Shown here: piece by piece, positions 4,880 through 10,795 of the stretch
How positions within the stretch are numbered: the first letter of the stretch is position 1
Layout of the letters: the number at the start of each line of letters is the position of its first letter
From: Gammaproteobacteria bacterium
GTDB taxonomy: Bacteria; Pseudomonadota; Gammaproteobacteria; Steroidobacterales; UBA11654
DNA: 37,262 nucleotides
Assembly (NCBI GenBank): GCA_002717445.1
Contig: PBDY01000014.1
Coordinates: 18,635 to 55,896 of the forward strand
Direction of reading: 5' to 3'
Position numbers and translations under genes: made by a program
The notes under the pieces: model-generated
Seen by the model: the letters and a program-made list of their open reading frames with translations, nothing else
Told to the model about the DNA's origin: nothing
The model's database searches: none

Positions 4880-6085
4880 ATGACTGACGCATATATTTTT
4901 GACCATGTTAGAAGCCCAAGAGGCAAGGGCAAATCTGACGGATCTCTTCACGAGGTAACGCCAATTGAATTACTATCTCAAGTATTGGCAGCATTGAGGG
5001 ATAGAAATAATCTTGATACAAGTCGCGTTGATGATGTAATCATGGGAGTGGTACATAACCAAGGAGAGCAAGCTTCTAATCCTGCTCGAGTGGCTGCAAT
5101 CAATGCTGGATATGCAGAAGAAGCCGCAGGAAAACAGTTGAATCGTTTTTGTGCATCTGGACTTGAAGCGGTCAATTCCGCAGCAGCGCAAGTAATGTCC
5201 GGCATGTCTGATCTATGCATCGGTGGTGGTTTGGAATCCATGTCCAGAGTTCCAATGGACACTGTCGGAGGAGCGCTTGCAGTAGATCCACAAGTGGCCT
5301 ATGGAAGTTATTTTGTTCCTCAAGGGATCAGCGCCGATCTGATTGCGTCTAAATATGGTTTTACCCGAGAAGATGTTGACTCGTATGCTGTTGAGAGTCA
5401 AAAAAGGGCAGCTCATGCCAGAAATGAGGGTTATTTTGATAACTCAATTGTTCCAATCAAAGACAATCTTGGCGATGTCTTATTGGATCATGATGAATGC
5501 ATAAGGGCAGAAACAACCATGGAGGATTTGGCAAAGCTCAAGCCATCTTTTATTCAAATGGGAGAATTTGGTTTCAATTCAGTTGCAATCCAGAGGTACC
5601 CTGAAGTAGAAAAAATGCAACACGTCCATCATGCAGGCAACTCAAGTGTAATTGTTGACGGAGCCAGTGCGGTAATGGTGGGTACAAAAGAGATTGGTGA
5701 AGAGTTGGGATTAACTCCAAGAGCAAGAATCGTTGGTTTTTCATCCACAGGTACCGAACCAACAATCATGCTGACGGGCCCCGCGCCATCAGCCGAGAAA
5801 GTTCTAAAAAGATGTGGAATGAGCAAGGGTGATATCGATTTATTCGAGCTCAATGAAGCCTTTGCTGTTGTTGTTCTGAGGTATATGCAACAAATGGATA
5901 TTGATCATGAAACAATCAATGTCAATGGCGGTGCAATTGCTATGGGGCATCCGCTAGGCGCTACTGGTGGCATGGTTTTGGGAACCCTTATTGATGAAAT
6001 GGAAAGAAGGGATCTGAATACCGGCTTAGTAAACTTATGCATCGGTGGCGGTATGGGAACATCAACGATTGTTGAACGTGTATAA
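4880..6085 (+). CDS. Acetyl-CoA acyltransferase (thiolase)
   Basis: A 401-residue thiolase, the usual length for the family. The nucleophile is Cys91 in NRFCASGLEAVN; the other catalytic residues are His357 in GGAIAMGHPLGATG and the acid/base Cys387 in LVNLCIGGGMGTS. It either cleaves 3-ketoacyl-CoA to acetyl-CoA plus a shortened acyl-CoA or condenses two acetyl-CoA. The next gene, 24 bases downstream, is a hydratase/dehydrogenase fusion, so the degradative direction (beta-oxidation) is the better reading. The order thiolase then multifunctional enzyme is that of fadI-fadJ rather than fadB-fadA. A good Shine-Dalgarno (AAGGTGA) fixes the start. Chain-length preference cannot be judged. Confidence 0.93.
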   Translation: MTDAYIFDHVRSPRGKGKSDGSLHEVTPIELLSQVLAALRDRNNLDTSRVDDVIMGVVHNQGEQASNPARVAAINAGYAEEAAGKQLNRFCASGLEAVNSAAAQVMSGMSDLCIGGGLESMSRVPMDTVGGALAVDPQVAYGSYFVPQGISADLIASKYGFTREDVDSYAVESQKRAAHARNEGYFDNSIVPIKDNLGDVLLDHDECIRAETTMEDLAKLKPSFIQMGEFGFNSVAIQRYPEVEKMQHVHHAGNSSVIVDGASAVMVGTKEIGEELGLTPRARIVGFSSTGTEPTIMLTGPAPSAEKVLKRCGMSKGDIDLFELNEAFAVVVLRYMQQMDIDHETINVNGGAIAMGHPLGATGGMVLGTLIDEMERRDLNTGLVNLCIGGGMGTSTIVERV

Positions 6086-6109
6086 CTAATTATTTAAAAG
6101 GGAATACTG

Positions 6110-8251
6110 ATGAGTAAAAACATTAATATGAGCGTCGATCAAGACGGGATTGCGGTCATTGAAATCGATGTTCAAGAACGGCCAATGAATGTAATTACAG
6201 TAGATTTTGCTGATGAATTTAAAAATTGTGTTGAGCAAGTACTTGGTGATGAAAAAGTCATCGGTGCAGTTGTCACTTCAGCAAAAAATGATTTCATGGC
6301 TGGCGCAGACTTAAAGACAATGTTGCCAAGCCTAATTGGTCTTGGTGATGCCTCAGCCATGGCTGAGAGAATAATTGAGAGTCATAAGGTTAATCGTGCC
6401 ATGGAAACTGGAGGTAAACCATTTGTTGCTGCAATCAATGGCACGGCTTTAGGTGGGGGTTTAGAAATAACACTTTCATGTCACCACCGAATTGCAGCAG
6501 ATAGAAAAGATGCTGTACTCGGCTTACCAGAAGTGATGGTTGGTCTCCTGCCAGGAGGTGGGGGAACCCAAAGACTTCCACGAATTATTGGGATACAGCC
6601 TGCATTAGAGCTCATGACACAAGGCAAGCATCTTAAACCTCAACAGGCAATGGCAATGGGTATTGTCAATGAACTGGCAGCTCCAGATGAATTATTGAGT
6701 AAAGCCAAGCATTGGATATTGGACGGTGGGAAAGCCGTTCAGCCTTGGGATAAAAAAGGATTCAAAGTTCCAGGTGGATTTGATCCAAATACCAAAGGAA
6801 CAATACAGATGTTCTCAGTGGTTAATGCAATGGTTGCAAAAAATACAAACCATAATTATCCAGCTCCAATCTCCATTGTTTCTTCAGTCTATGAGGGATG
6901 CTTGCTTCCAATCGATAAAGGACTTGAAATTGAAGCCAAATACTTTGTTGGTCTACTCATGGACCCAGTTTCTGGGAATATGATCAGAAGCCTCTTTAAC
7001 AATAAACAATCGGCAGATAAATTAAGAGCCAGACCCGATGGAGTAGAAAAACACACTGTCAAAACTCTGGGTATGCTCGGAGCAGGAATGATGGGGGCTG
7101 GAATTGCCTTGGTGAGTGCTCAAGCTGGGATGAAAGTCTACCTCTTGGACTCATCATTAGAGAATGCTGAGAAGGGCAAGGCTTATTCAGAAAAGTATTT
7201 CCAGAAAAGTGTTGCTAGAAAGAAGATGACTGAGGAGAAGAAAGTTGCAGTCTTGAAAAATATCATTCCAACTACTGATTACAATGATCTTAAAGATTGT
7301 GACTTAATTATTGAGGCAGTTTTCGAAAGCAGAGAAATCAAAGCTGATGTGACACAAAAAACTGAAGCAGTGATCGGAGAAGACATTGTCTTTGCATCCA
7401 ATACTTCGACATTGCCAATATCTGGACTGGCCGAGTCATCTGGCAGACCTCACAATTTTATTGGTATGCACTTCTTCTCCCCTGTAGAAAGAATGCCTTT
7501 GGTCGAAATGATCATGGGAGAAAAATCTTCAGATGAAGCATTGGCTAAATCCTTGGATTATATTGCTCAGATTAAGAAAACACCCATAGTCGTTAATGAT
7601 AGTCGAGGTTTTTACACCTCGAGAGTATTTAGTACCTCATGCAATGAAGCCAACGAGATGATTAAAGAAGGCGCCAATCCCGCATTAATAGAGAATGCTG
7701 CGAGGCATGCAGGATATCCGGTTGGACCGATAGCGGTTCAAGATGAAACCACCATTGATCTCTCTATCAAGATTCACAAACAATCAACCGAGGATTTAGG
7801 AGACGAATACAAACCAATGTCTTCAATTGATGTCATGCAAAAGATGTATGATCTTGGAAGATTGGGCAAGAGATTTGGCGGAGGTTTCTATGAGTACCCT
7901 GAGGGAGGAAAGAAATTCCTTTGGCCGGGCTTAGCCGAAATCTATCCCGTCAAAGAGGAGCAGCCAGACATACAAGAAATCAAGGATAGGCTGATGACTG
8001 TTCAATCGCTAGATGCATACCGATGTCTCGATGAAAATGTTCTCACCAATCCAGATGATGGGGATTTAGGCTCAATCTTTGCATGGGGATTTCCACCATG
8101 GACAGGCGGTGTTTTCTCATATATTGATATGGTGGGCATCGAGAACTTTGTTGCCCGTTGCGATGACTATTGCGAACGGTTCGGGCAGCGATTTGAGGTT
8201 CCAGAGAGTCTGAGAGAAATGGCAGAGAAAAAAGAGAAATTCTATTCCTAA
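6110..8251 (+). CDS. fadJ: Multifunctional enoyl-CoA hydratase/3-hydroxyacyl-CoA dehydrogenase
   Basis: A 713-residue fusion that carries out the hydration and NAD-dependent oxidation steps of beta-oxidation. The N-terminal crotonase domain (about 1-190) has the oxyanion-hole loop around FMAGADLK and the catalytic glutamates Glu119 (GGGLEI) and Glu141 (GLPEVMVG), matching Glu119 and Glu139 of FadB. A linker follows, then the NAD-binding Rossmann motif GMLGAGMMGAG (321-331), the dehydrogenase His454 in GMHFFSPVERMPL, and two C-terminal helical dehydrogenase domains (GKRFGGGFYEYP). The length is close to E. coli FadJ (714) and the gene follows its thiolase as in fadIJ, so fadJ is the preferred symbol; FadB-type membership is not excluded. 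It is probably co-transcribed with the thiolase. Confidence 0.92.
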   Translation: MSKNINMSVDQDGIAVIEIDVQERPMNVITVDFADEFKNCVEQVLGDEKVIGAVVTSAKNDFMAGADLKTMLPSLIGLGDASAMAERIIESHKVNRAMETGGKPFVAAINGTALGGGLEITLSCHHRIAADRKDAVLGLPEVMVGLLPGGGGTQRLPRIIGIQPALELMTQGKHLKPQQAMAMGIVNELAAPDELLSKAKHWILDGGKAVQPWDKKGFKVPGGFDPNTKGTIQMFSVVNAMVAKNTNHNYPAPISIVSSVYEGCLLPIDKGLEIEAKYFVGLLMDPVSGNMIRSLFNNKQSADKLRARPDGVEKHTVKTLGMLGAGMMGAGIALVSAQAGMKVYLLDSSLENAEKGKAYSEKYFQKSVARKKMTEEKKVAVLKNIIPTTDYNDLKDCDLIIEAVFESREIKADVTQKTEAVIGEDIVFASNTSTLPISGLAESSGRPHNFIGMHFFSPVERMPLVEMIMGEKSSDEALAKSLDYIAQIKKTPIVVNDSRGFYTSRVFSTSCNEANEMIKEGANPALIENAARHAGYPVGPIAVQDETTIDLSIKIHKQSTEDLGDEYKPMSSIDVMQKMYDLGRLGKRFGGGFYEYPEGGKKFLWPGLAEIYPVKEEQPDIQEIKDRLMTVQSLDAYRCLDENVLTNPDDGDLGSIFAWGFPPWTGGVFSYIDMVGIENFVARCDDYCERFGQRFEVPESLREMAEKKEKFYS

Positions 8252-8313
8252 AAGAGTTTTTTTACTTTAACCTATAGGGTCTCAAAATATATACATAGAA
8301 AAAGGGAGTCAAT

Positions 8314-8655
8314 ATGGCCAATCAAATGGGCGATGCATCTGAAGGGAGACCATCAGGTAAGGGCAAGCCACTCAATTCCATTGAACATAAAAGGTCCAAA
8401 TCAGCAAAGACTTGGATCAAGAAGGAGCTTGCTCAGCAGCAAAAAAGGTTCAAGAAGATTCTTCAGAATATGGAGGACCTTACACCTAAGAGAAATAAAT
8501 GGTATGCAGAGTTCTTAGAAACAGTTTCTACACGTGGAACCAATATCGATGGTGATACAAGAGCGGTTGTGGCAAAACAAGACTTACCTAAGCCACCAAG
8601 AAAAAAACACAGAGTTACCTATGAGGCAAAAGACCTCAAAGGCTTTGATCATTAA
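8314..8655 (+). CDS. Small basic protein of unknown family
   Basis: I do not recognise this 113-residue protein. It is lysine-rich and strongly basic. A Gly/Ser-rich N-terminus (about 1-20) is followed by a probable amphipathic helix or coiled coil (about 30-55, TWIKKELAQQQKRFKKIL), then a segment with Trp and aromatic residues (KWYAEFLETV), and a proline/lysine-rich tail (LPKPPRKKHRV). There is no signal peptide, membrane segment or cysteine. A strong Shine-Dalgarno (AAAGGGAGT) and codon use like the neighbours support a real gene. It lies 62 bases after fadJ and 20 bases before the bicupin gene, within what looks like one catabolic operon. RNA or DNA binding, or a scaffold for the CoA enzymes, are only guesses. 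Confidence 0.75.
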   Translation: MANQMGDASEGRPSGKGKPLNSIEHKRSKSAKTWIKKELAQQQKRFKKILQNMEDLTPKRNKWYAEFLETVSTRGTNIDGDTRAVVAKQDLPKPPRKKHRVTYEAKDLKGFDH

Positions 8656-8675
8656 TTTTTTAGAAGGGGAATAAA

Positions 8676-9578
8676 ATGCCTAGACCACATATTGAGCCTT
8701 ATGACGAAAGACCGGATGCATTCAGAAGAATGACACTGCCTGGCTTCGGCAAAGGCATGCACTATAAAGTGCTTAGCATGGATACAGATACTGGTGCTTG
8801 CTCGCTTCTTGTTAAGTTTGAAAGCGGCTACAAATTACCTCCAGGAATGAGCTATTCAGAATTGGAGATGTTTGTTGTTTCTGGTTCAGTGACTTACGGA
8901 GATACAACTTATGGAGAAGGGTATTACTTTCTAATTCCTCCTGGTGTATCGATGCCAGAGATGAGTGTAAAGCGAGGGGCTAAAGTCCTGATGTTCTATA
9001 ACTACGGAGAACCAAGCTTCATACCTTCTGACGAGGATCATCCTCTTGCTGAAAGAGAACGTTTTTCGATCATTAATTCAATGGAAGATATTGCCTGGAT
9101 GCCAGGGAATAGAATTGTTCCATCGGTTGCCTCTGGATGCATGCTTAAACTATTGAAATATGATATTCACACAGAAGCACATACTTTCTTATACTGCATG
9201 ACACCTGGTTTTAACCAAGACAACATTTCTTATCATGATTGTTGTGAGGAGTCTTACCACATATGGGGAACCTCATGGATGATGCAGTTTGGGGATCTCC
9301 CAACCGGCGGATATTTCTGGAGACCTCCTTATATTAACCACGGAGCTTTTGCCAGTAAAAATGGAATCATTGCCATTGGAAGAACAGATGCACATTTGCA
9401 TAACTACTTCCATCATAATCCATGGTCCACTCCCAAAGAGAATGCTGACAGGGCAGCTGCTAGGTTGAGACGCCTGAGGCCTTCGCTTTATAAGTGGATT
9501 CAGTCACCAGACGGGCACAATCATTTTACAGACTTTGAGTATCCGCACTACCACGATCACGACCACGATCACGGCTAG
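8676..9578 (+). CDS. Bicupin protein with C-terminal His/Asp metal-binding tail
   Basis: A 300-residue protein with two cupin barrels. The first (about 40-110) keeps the glycines and the glutamate (YSELEMFVVSGSV) but lacks the HxH and later His ligands of cupin motifs 1 and 2, so it probably binds no metal. The second (about 155-240) keeps candidate ligands His187, Glu191 or Glu192, His195 and His222 (HDCCEESYHIWG ... PPYINHG). The C-terminus ends in HYHDHDHDHG (291-300), a likely metal chelator. Family knowledge: such cupins can be dioxygenases, isomerases or hydrolases. Placed between beta-oxidation genes and a CoA-transferase, a role in breakdown of an oxygenated or aromatic acid is plausible but inferred. 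The start follows AGAAGGGGA. Confidence 0.8.
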   Translation: MPRPHIEPYDERPDAFRRMTLPGFGKGMHYKVLSMDTDTGACSLLVKFESGYKLPPGMSYSELEMFVVSGSVTYGDTTYGEGYYFLIPPGVSMPEMSVKRGAKVLMFYNYGEPSFIPSDEDHPLAERERFSIINSMEDIAWMPGNRIVPSVASGCMLKLLKYDIHTEAHTFLYCMTPGFNQDNISYHDCCEESYHIWGTSWMMQFGDLPTGGYFWRPPYINHGAFASKNGIIAIGRTDAHLHNYFHHNPWSTPKENADRAAARLRRLRPSLYKWIQSPDGHNHFTDFEYPHYHDHDHDHG

Positions 9579-9598
9579 TAGTCGATACTTTAATCAAT

Positions 9599-10795
9599 AT
9601 GTCCGGGCCACTCAAGGGACTCAAGATACTGGAACTCACCAGTGTTGTTCTGGGTCCTTGGGCAGCACAAATACTTGCAGATATGGGAGCCGAAGTCATA
9701 AAGGTTGAGGCTCCTTTTGGCGACAGTAACAGGCAGTTGGGCGCATCAAGAAATCCCGGTATGGCTGCTTTATACCTATCTAATAATCGAAACAAAAGAA
9801 GTCTAGTTCTTGATCTGAAGCAAGAAAGTGCAAGGGATGCTCTTTTTGAAATCATTAAAGATTCAGACGTTTTTCTACACAACAATAGGCCACAAGTTAT
9901 GACCAAGCTGGGATTGGAATACAAACAAATCTCTGAGGTCAACCCAAGCATCGTTTACTGCGGTACATATGGATATGGAAAAGAAGGGCCTTACGGTAAA
10001 AAAGGCGCACTGGATGATTCAATTCAGGCCGTCAGTGGAATTGCCAGTTTAAATGAGTTGGTGCTGGGAGAGCCCAGATACTTGCCGACAGTCGTTGCAG
10101 ACAAGACCACCGCCATTACTGTTGTTTATTCAATTCTCGCTGCTCTTTATCATCGAGAAAGAACTGGAGAGGGTCAAGAAGTTGAAGTTCCAATGTTTGA
10201 ATCAATGGTTTTTTTCACTATGGCAGAGCACATATGGGGAGAAATTTTTGAGCCTGCGCTGGGCCCTGCTGGTTATACCAGACTCATGTCGCACCATCGG
10301 AAACCATATAAAACCAAAGACGGCTACATTGCAGTACTGCCTTACATGAATAATCATTGGAAGACCTTTTGCGAAAAAGGCGGCAGACCAGATTTAGTTG
10401 AAGATGAGCGCTTCAAAGATCTCTCCTCAAGAGTTAAGAATATTGATGAAACTTATTCAGAGACTGGAAAGATCTTAGAATCAAGAACCACACAGGAATG
10501 GCTAGATATTTTTGATGAAACCAAGGTTCCTGTGATTGTCGTGAATAGTTTAGACGATCTTTTTCACGATCCACATCTCAACGAAGTGGGTTTTTGGCAA
10601 GAATACGAACATCCAACAGAAGGAAAGCTCAAGATGCCAGGTTTTCCTGCCAATTTCTCCAAAACACCTGCAACAATCAGGAAGCATGCCCCTAAGCTAG
10701 GAGAGCATACGATTGAGATTCTAAAAGAGGCAGGAATCAATGATGAAACCATCGAAGAGATGATTTCCTCTAAAGCAACATTGGTTTCTGATTAA
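9599..10795 (+). CDS. Family III CoA-transferase (CaiB/BaiF type)
   Basis: A 398-residue CoA-transferase of family III. It has the N-terminal signature GLKILELTSVVLGPWAAQ, the cofactor-binding segment LADMGAEVIKVE, and the catalytic aspartate in the DDSIQAVSG region. The late NSLDDLFHDPHLNEVGFW segment is typical of the interlocked-ring dimer fold. It moves CoA between carboxylic acids (for example succinyl-CoA to a substrate acid), activating a substrate for the hydratase/dehydrogenase and thiolase encoded upstream. The gap to the bicupin gene is 20 bases with a weak ribosome site, so it is probably the last gene of the operon. It overlaps the convergent peroxiredoxin gene by 4 bases. The acid substrate cannot be deduced. 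Confidence 0.93.
   Translation: MSGPLKGLKILELTSVVLGPWAAQILADMGAEVIKVEAPFGDSNRQLGASRNPGMAALYLSNNRNKRSLVLDLKQESARDALFEIIKDSDVFLHNNRPQVMTKLGLEYKQISEVNPSIVYCGTYGYGKEGPYGKKGALDDSIQAVSGIASLNELVLGEPRYLPTVVADKTTAITVVYSILAALYHRERTGEGQEVEVPMFESMVFFTMAEHIWGEIFEPALGPAGYTRLMSHHRKPYKTKDGYIAVLPYMNNHWKTFCEKGGRPDLVEDERFKDLSSRVKNIDETYSETGKILESRTTQEWLDIFDETKVPVIVVNSLDDLFHDPHLNEVGFWQEYEHPTEGKLKMPGFPANFSKTPATIRKHAPKLGEHTIEILKEAGINDETIEEMISSKATLVSD

Follow-up and report, generated by a model that had tools for sequence, protein, structure and literature searches.

A small protein family tied to one clade of DUF4437/Cupin_7 dicupins: a candidate accessory subunit of a putative cupin metal enzyme

In protocatechuate 4,5-dioxygenase (LigAB), a small helical subunit sits beside the catalytic subunit, and HapCD and PnpCD are type II hydroquinone 1,2-dioxygenases, PnpCD having a cupin fold. 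The type II hydroquinone 1,2-dioxygenase HqdAB is described as an alpha2beta2 enzyme built from two different subunits (PMC3222310). In such systems the genes of a small and a large subunit are adjacent and together give one ring-cleaving dioxygenase, and the locus studied here resembles them in its gene layout. At this level of gene order, a small gene next to a cupin gene was present at 39 of 40 loci. Among the open-licence papers listed on DUF4437 or on cupin dioxygenases with small subunits or accessory proteins, none dealt with the pair formed by this small protein and its dicupin.

The small gene and its surroundings in the window

The window, i.e., the whole stretch of 37,262 nt that was analysed (contig PBDY01000014.1 of a Gammaproteobacteria bacterium), carries a same-direction run of genes from 4880 to 10795, separated by gaps of 24, 62, 20, and 20 nt:

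4880-6085, + strand, thiolase (acetyl-CoA C-acetyltransferase) gene
6110-8251, + strand, gene for a FadJ-like multifunctional beta-oxidation protein
8314-8655, + strand, small gene, 113 aa, ATG start, predicted helical protein
8676-9578, + strand, dicupin gene (DUF4437/Cupin_7), 300 aa
9599-10795, + strand, class III (CaiB-type) CoA-transferase gene, 398 aa, a frequent but inconstant third member beside the pair

The first-pass annotation had described a basic ORF of 113 residues with a strong ribosome site between fadJ and a bicupin gene, and this description was confirmed: sequence inspection showed a ribosome-site-like GGGAG 5 nt ahead of the ATG, and the encoded protein has a pI of 10.1 and a net charge of +12. 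The gene upstream is FadJ-like, its top NCBIfam model being FadJ/PRK11154 with 600.6 bits, below the model cut-off of 869. The small-gene frame, whose conservation in relatives had been singled out as worth checking, was stop-free and of full length in each of the 10 genus genomes searched, the own genome included. Its dN/dS was 0.033 to 0.041 against the four closest genomes, while among the five remaining comparisons four had a saturated dS and one gave 0.11 at a dS of 2.4. The intact frame across the genus and the low dN/dS thus show that 8314-8655 is no chance ORF but a genuine gene, on which purifying selection acts strongly. Neither promoter-like sites (7, versus 15.3 in shuffled sequences) nor terminators (7, versus 6.0) exceeded the shuffled background, and the scan placed no promoter-like site on the + strand between fadJ and the small gene.

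Linkage of the small gene to one dicupin clade

Whether homologues of the small gene recur beside the bicupin gene had also been raised from the sequence, and they do so at both scales at which we looked. In 39 of the 40 loci read, the dicupin gene lay immediately 3' of the small gene on the same strand, 0 to 78 nt past its stop, L038 being the sole exception; since several loci come from one genome or from close relatives, these do not amount to 40 independent events. The set leaves out duplicate fetches of one place and the genus genomes G002, G004, and G005, whose coordinates likewise put a dicupin directly 3' of the small gene. In the order sample, a dicupin was found directly 3' of 78 of the 92 small-gene matches, with gaps of -1 to 181 nt.

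The two genes also occur together across genomes, as counted in relative, class, phylum, and order samples that overlap. Among 59 relative genomes, 22 carry the small gene, and a dicupin with 57% or greater identity to that of the window is found in those 22 and in no others, all remaining dicupin matches in these relatives being 35% identical or less. The small gene and a close dicupin were each present in 4 of the 369 genomes of the class sample, the same four genomes in both cases, and the phylum sample yielded the small gene in 1 of 398 genomes, the own genome alone. Of the 296 genomes of the order sample, the small gene was present in 75 and a close dicupin in 73, the two coinciding in 72, and 220 had neither; a Fisher test on these counts takes no account of descent, and its figure is not to be taken as a probability. 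This leaves three genomes with the small gene only, namely, G921, where the dicupin is cut by the contig end, G880, where the locus runs off contig ends twice, and G911, where the locus is decayed, and one with the dicupin only (G854), in which the dicupin lies 76 nt from the contig end.

The exceptions to direct adjacency in the order sample were of few kinds. Fourteen of the 92 small-gene matches had no intact dicupin directly 3'. Five of these lie at contig ends, where either the dicupin is cut (G921:C63 and G884:C71) or the small-gene locus itself runs off (G880 twice and G876:C17). In seven more, the small gene stands before a CaiB gene with an amidohydrolase_2 gene beyond (G037, which is L038, G816, G897, G826, G840:C42, G876:C125, and G884:C151). 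One locus has no dicupin, the small gene being followed by a transporter gene (G912:C42), and the last is that of G911 (L129, 4200-5153), where the small-gene frame breaks off midway and continues, in frame, as the N-terminal half of a truncated dicupin. This apparent natural fusion was set aside as evidence, since the truncated dicupin makes the locus look decayed. Conversely, 15 of 100 dicupin matches had no small gene within 1600 nt upstream: seven belong to the genomes with a separated pair, three to contig ends (G854 and two neighbouring matches at the start of G884:C59), and five are left over (G935:C26, G012:C344, two in G856, and G840:C41), every one of them in a genome that has a small gene at another place.

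All seven genomes in which the small gene precedes CaiB keep a lone dicupin elsewhere, 65 to 67% identical to that of the window, and the retention of both separated genes in one genome is, in our view, the strongest individual indication that they share a task. The same seven arrangements could be taken to mean that the small protein belongs with the CaiB-type CoA-transferase, as its subunit or partner, or with a larger assembly that includes the transferase, in keeping with the close CaiB-type gene found near 24 of the 40 loci. The remaining 16 loci, however, had no close CaiB in the stretch fetched, some of their contigs being short, and class III CoA-transferases are not known to require a small subunit of this kind; we consider this role improbable.

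Over the 33 loci for which both proteins were in the alignments, the distance matrices of small protein and dicupin correlated with r = 0.75, a value reached in 0 of 2000 permutations, and nearest neighbours agreed in 23 of 33 loci; this correlation is confounded by descent, which alone could also produce it. Charge complementarity between the two proteins, sought over the same 33 loci, was absent, the charges correlating positively (r = +0.50). Overall, the small family appears to be tied to one dicupin clade, and a partnership of the two is well supported by genomics.

The wider neighbourhood is less constant. For neighbour genes, matches below 90 bits were dropped, and one comparison also dropped those below 40% identity (fadJ, thiolase, and fabG) or 45% identity (CaiB). 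On this basis fadJ and thiolase were found nearby in 7 of 40 loci, all from the genus of the window, and we therefore rejected them as general partners of the small gene. The initial reading of the locus as a CoA-catabolic operon thus applies in full to the genus of the window alone: proximity to fadJ is a feature of that genus, whereas the dicupin neighbourhood is general. Within the fadJ-small gene interval, two loci carry genes for a FAD_binding_4 oxidase and an M24 peptidase-like protein and an unnamed gene of 332 to 337 aa (L025, 6379-10219, and L026, 5982-9840), and in L027 and L028 the M24 gene stands there alone.

Around the pair, the neighbours vary by lineage and include genes for amidohydrolase_2, isochorismatase-like, Rieske oxygenase, PuuE-like deacetylase, TonB receptor, transporter, aminotransferase, and methyltransferase proteins. 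The nearest solved relative of the amidohydrolase_2 neighbour is an uncharacterised protein, followed by 4-oxalomesaconate hydratase, and that of the isochorismatase-like neighbour is N-carbamoylsarcosine amidohydrolase. A recurrent cluster in L037, L040, L071, and L074 consists of a TonB receptor, an isochorismatase-like hydrolase, a PuuE-like deacetylase, the small gene, and the dicupin, joined in three of the four loci by a Rieske oxygenase, a transporter, and a short-chain dehydrogenase; its make-up suggests a catabolic route that is still uncharacterised and may serve a nitrogen-containing compound.

Named genome contigs were scanned with two peptide patterns, a search that picks up only part of the small family; it gave 25 loci, every one from a metagenome-assembled genome labelled Gammaproteobacteria, Alphaproteobacteria, Proteobacteria, Rhodospirillales, Steroidobacteraceae, or Chromatiales. 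Plasmid and phage records contained no small-family match.

Sequence and predicted structure of the two proteins

Members of the small family are about 85 to 113 residues long and share a core of about 85 residues, corresponding to residues ~22 to 104 of the window protein; in the genus of the window this core is flanked by an N-terminal extension of about 20 residues (~1 to 20) and a C-terminal tail of 9 (~105 to 113). In an alignment of 39 rows, from which L025 was left out for an unknown base, W34, I49, R60, F67, G75, P95, and V101 were invariant and Q42, R45, W63, I71, R74, D81, and P92 nearly so. The protein had been called unrecognised, and profile searches agree. The best Pfam match of the window protein scored 14.7 bits against a cut-off of 25. 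For the 39 members, the best matches reached E values of 0.014 in Pfam and 0.0061 in NCBIfam, scattered in both cases over unrelated families, and the top match of a PDB profile search was an intermediate-filament protein (E 0.0096), which is unconvincing. The small protein thus belongs, by these searches, to an unnamed family for which Pfam, NCBIfam, and PDB offer nothing convincing.

Much of the first-pass annotation turned on the basic character of the protein, from which binding of acidic CoA esters or regulation of expression had been suggested. A regulator whose positive charge binds nucleic acid or acidic CoA esters would be in line with the pI of 9.7 to 11.7 calculated for 30 of the 39 members. 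In the other 9, however, the net charge is 0 or below; basic charge is therefore not a trait kept by the whole family, and a charge-based function was rejected as its shared role. CoA-ester binding is accordingly unlikely as a shared function, and regulation through charge is a misfit for the family as a whole. Together with the lack of a convincing DNA-binding family match or a fold match, and with the absence of fadJ and thiolase around 33 of 40 members and of a close CaiB around 16 of 40, this makes the regulator reading very unlikely.

Modelled alone, the small protein was predicted to form two helices (29-55 and 57-73) and two short strands (76-79 and 82-84) followed mostly by coil, with disordered ends; confidence in this model is modest (pLDDT 73.5, pTM 0.48), and Foldseek returned no match for it in the PDB and viral libraries. 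The conserved polar residues, with R60 invariant and Q42, R45, R74, and D81 nearly so, might suggest an enzyme in its own right, or a protein that acts on a pathway substrate without contacting the dicupin. Such a role appears extremely unlikely for a protein of this size that is predicted as a helical hairpin, lacks any fold match, and shows neither His nor Cys nor Ser at the invariant or nearly invariant positions of the 39-row alignment.

The dicupin of the window matched DUF4437 (71.1 bits, cut-off 24) and Cupin_7 (54.3 bits, cut-off 27), the only Pfam families found at E values up to 1. Five residues of its C-terminal cupin, H187, E191, E192, H195, and H222, were kept in 33 of 33 aligned dicupins, and since they fit the general cupin motif, which is a metal-site pattern, they likely form a metal site; the N-terminal cupin, by reading, has none of the usual motif histidines. 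The predicted fold, taken from the model of a small protein-dicupin fusion, is nearest, among the best 50 matches listed, to the putative dioxygenase 2qdr (Z 22.8, rmsd 2.6, 245 aligned residues), followed by ChrR (Z 17.9, rmsd 3.1, 214 aligned) and then by quercetin dioxygenases (Z about 16, rmsd about 3.0, 225 aligned). It supports a cupin enzyme, and from the fold and the gene neighbours we infer an oxygenase chemistry. The Nostoc protein 2qdr and the window dicupin are alike in fold and in belonging to the DUF4437/Cupin_7 family; they differ in that 2qdr lacks H187 in the alignment, whereas the partner clade keeps its own set of H187, E191, E192, H195, and H222.

Dicupins of the partner clade are mostly preceded by the small gene, whereas a distant dicupin in the own genome is not. 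This distant dicupin (L126, 9318-13301, contig C8) is about 30 to 33% identical, has no small gene upstream, and is followed by an amidohydrolase_2 gene and by genes that by reading encode AMP-forming-ligase-like and DsbA/isomerase-like proteins. Tandem dicupin pairs behind a single small gene were seen in L031 (10254-12163), L037 (8011-9946), and L071 (8242-10177).

The dicupin of the window ends in a His-rich stretch, HYHDHDHDHG (9546-9575), and such a tail is found in many aligned dicupins, with longer versions in some, e.g., in L128; storage or delivery of metal is a possible function. The tail bears on the proposal that the small protein serves in maturation or assembly, delivering metal to the dicupin or helping it to fold, and is not itself part of the active enzyme. 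That proposal draws on the same gene linkage and on the metal handling to which the tail may point. It fits less well with the occurrence, in the loci read, of one small gene per dicupin or tandem dicupin pair, and with the conserved columns of the small family: as these contain no Cys or His, the small protein is unlikely to carry metal itself. We regard a maturation factor as unlikely.

The fusion model was obtained from L028, whose small gene was read through in frame into its own dicupin, the stop being taken as glycine. It had a whole-model pTM of 0.79 and gave the small protein the same helices and strands as when modelled alone. Mean pLDDT rose to 81 and 92 for small-protein residues 21 to 30 and 31 to 40, versus 71 and 87 alone, and fell for residues 1 to 20. 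The two input sequences are 74% identical, their alignments differ, and the output contains no interface score, so that the fusion model is no demonstration of contact.

A proposed role for the pair

From the genomic linkage, we consider that the small protein is, on balance, probably a dedicated accessory (small) subunit or an obligate partner of the downstream dicupin enzyme. This retains, in narrower form, the earlier idea of a scaffold: a dicupin subunit or partner, and not a scaffold for the enzymes in general. In the mechanism that we propose, the helical hairpin (29-73), the conserved R-G-x-N turn, and the proline-bearing arm (~74-101) would dock on the dicupin, the conserved arm and turn having the look of a docking or capping element. 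Once docked, the small protein would complete, cap, or stabilise the metal-bearing C-terminal cupin. Judging from fold and neighbours, the pair would probably act as an oxygenase or a related metal enzyme in the breakdown of an aromatic or nitrogen-containing compound. In the genus of the window, the product of the pair may next be converted to a thioester by the CaiB-type transferase and broken down by FadJ and the thiolase.

The pair may work in the manner of a type II hydroquinone dioxygenase; it is not a member of the PnpCD family, since neither protein shows sequence similarity to it. The own genome contains no match to PnpCD_PnpD_N (PF18191) at E 0.001, and the comparison was made with a PnpD homologue located in G533, to which the dicupin showed no similarity (E 2.6). 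The gene beside this homologue, a single comparison sequence taken to be PnpC from its position, gave an hhalign probability of 0.1 with the small family. It reads like a single cupin, with no Pfam match, whereas the small protein is a predicted helical hairpin. PnpD was also absent from the best 50 fold matches listed for the fusion model, which excludes nothing. The likeness to LigAB is similarly partial: the partner here is a dicupin, and the 39 small-family members between them match six Pfam families at E 0.05 or better, none of which is LigA.

A bolder and distinctly tentative possibility is that the pair represents an undescribed class of two-component cupin oxygenases, in which a helical cap completes the C-terminal cupin active site by way of its R-G-x-N turn and its arm with prolines, and that this module has been reused across Proteobacterial catabolic pathways, accompanied by a Rieske oxygenase, an isochorismatase-like hydrolase, an amidohydrolase, or a CoA-transferase with beta-oxidation. 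As all 25 named loci found in the contig scan come from metagenome-assembled genomes, work on cultures has probably missed the pathways in which the module sits.

With the accessory subunit or partner as the favoured reading, an orphan ORF becomes part of a module of two genes that is open to testing. Should the small protein and the dicupin make up a single enzyme, substrate searches for these dicupins would need both genes, and a dicupin expressed alone could be inactive.
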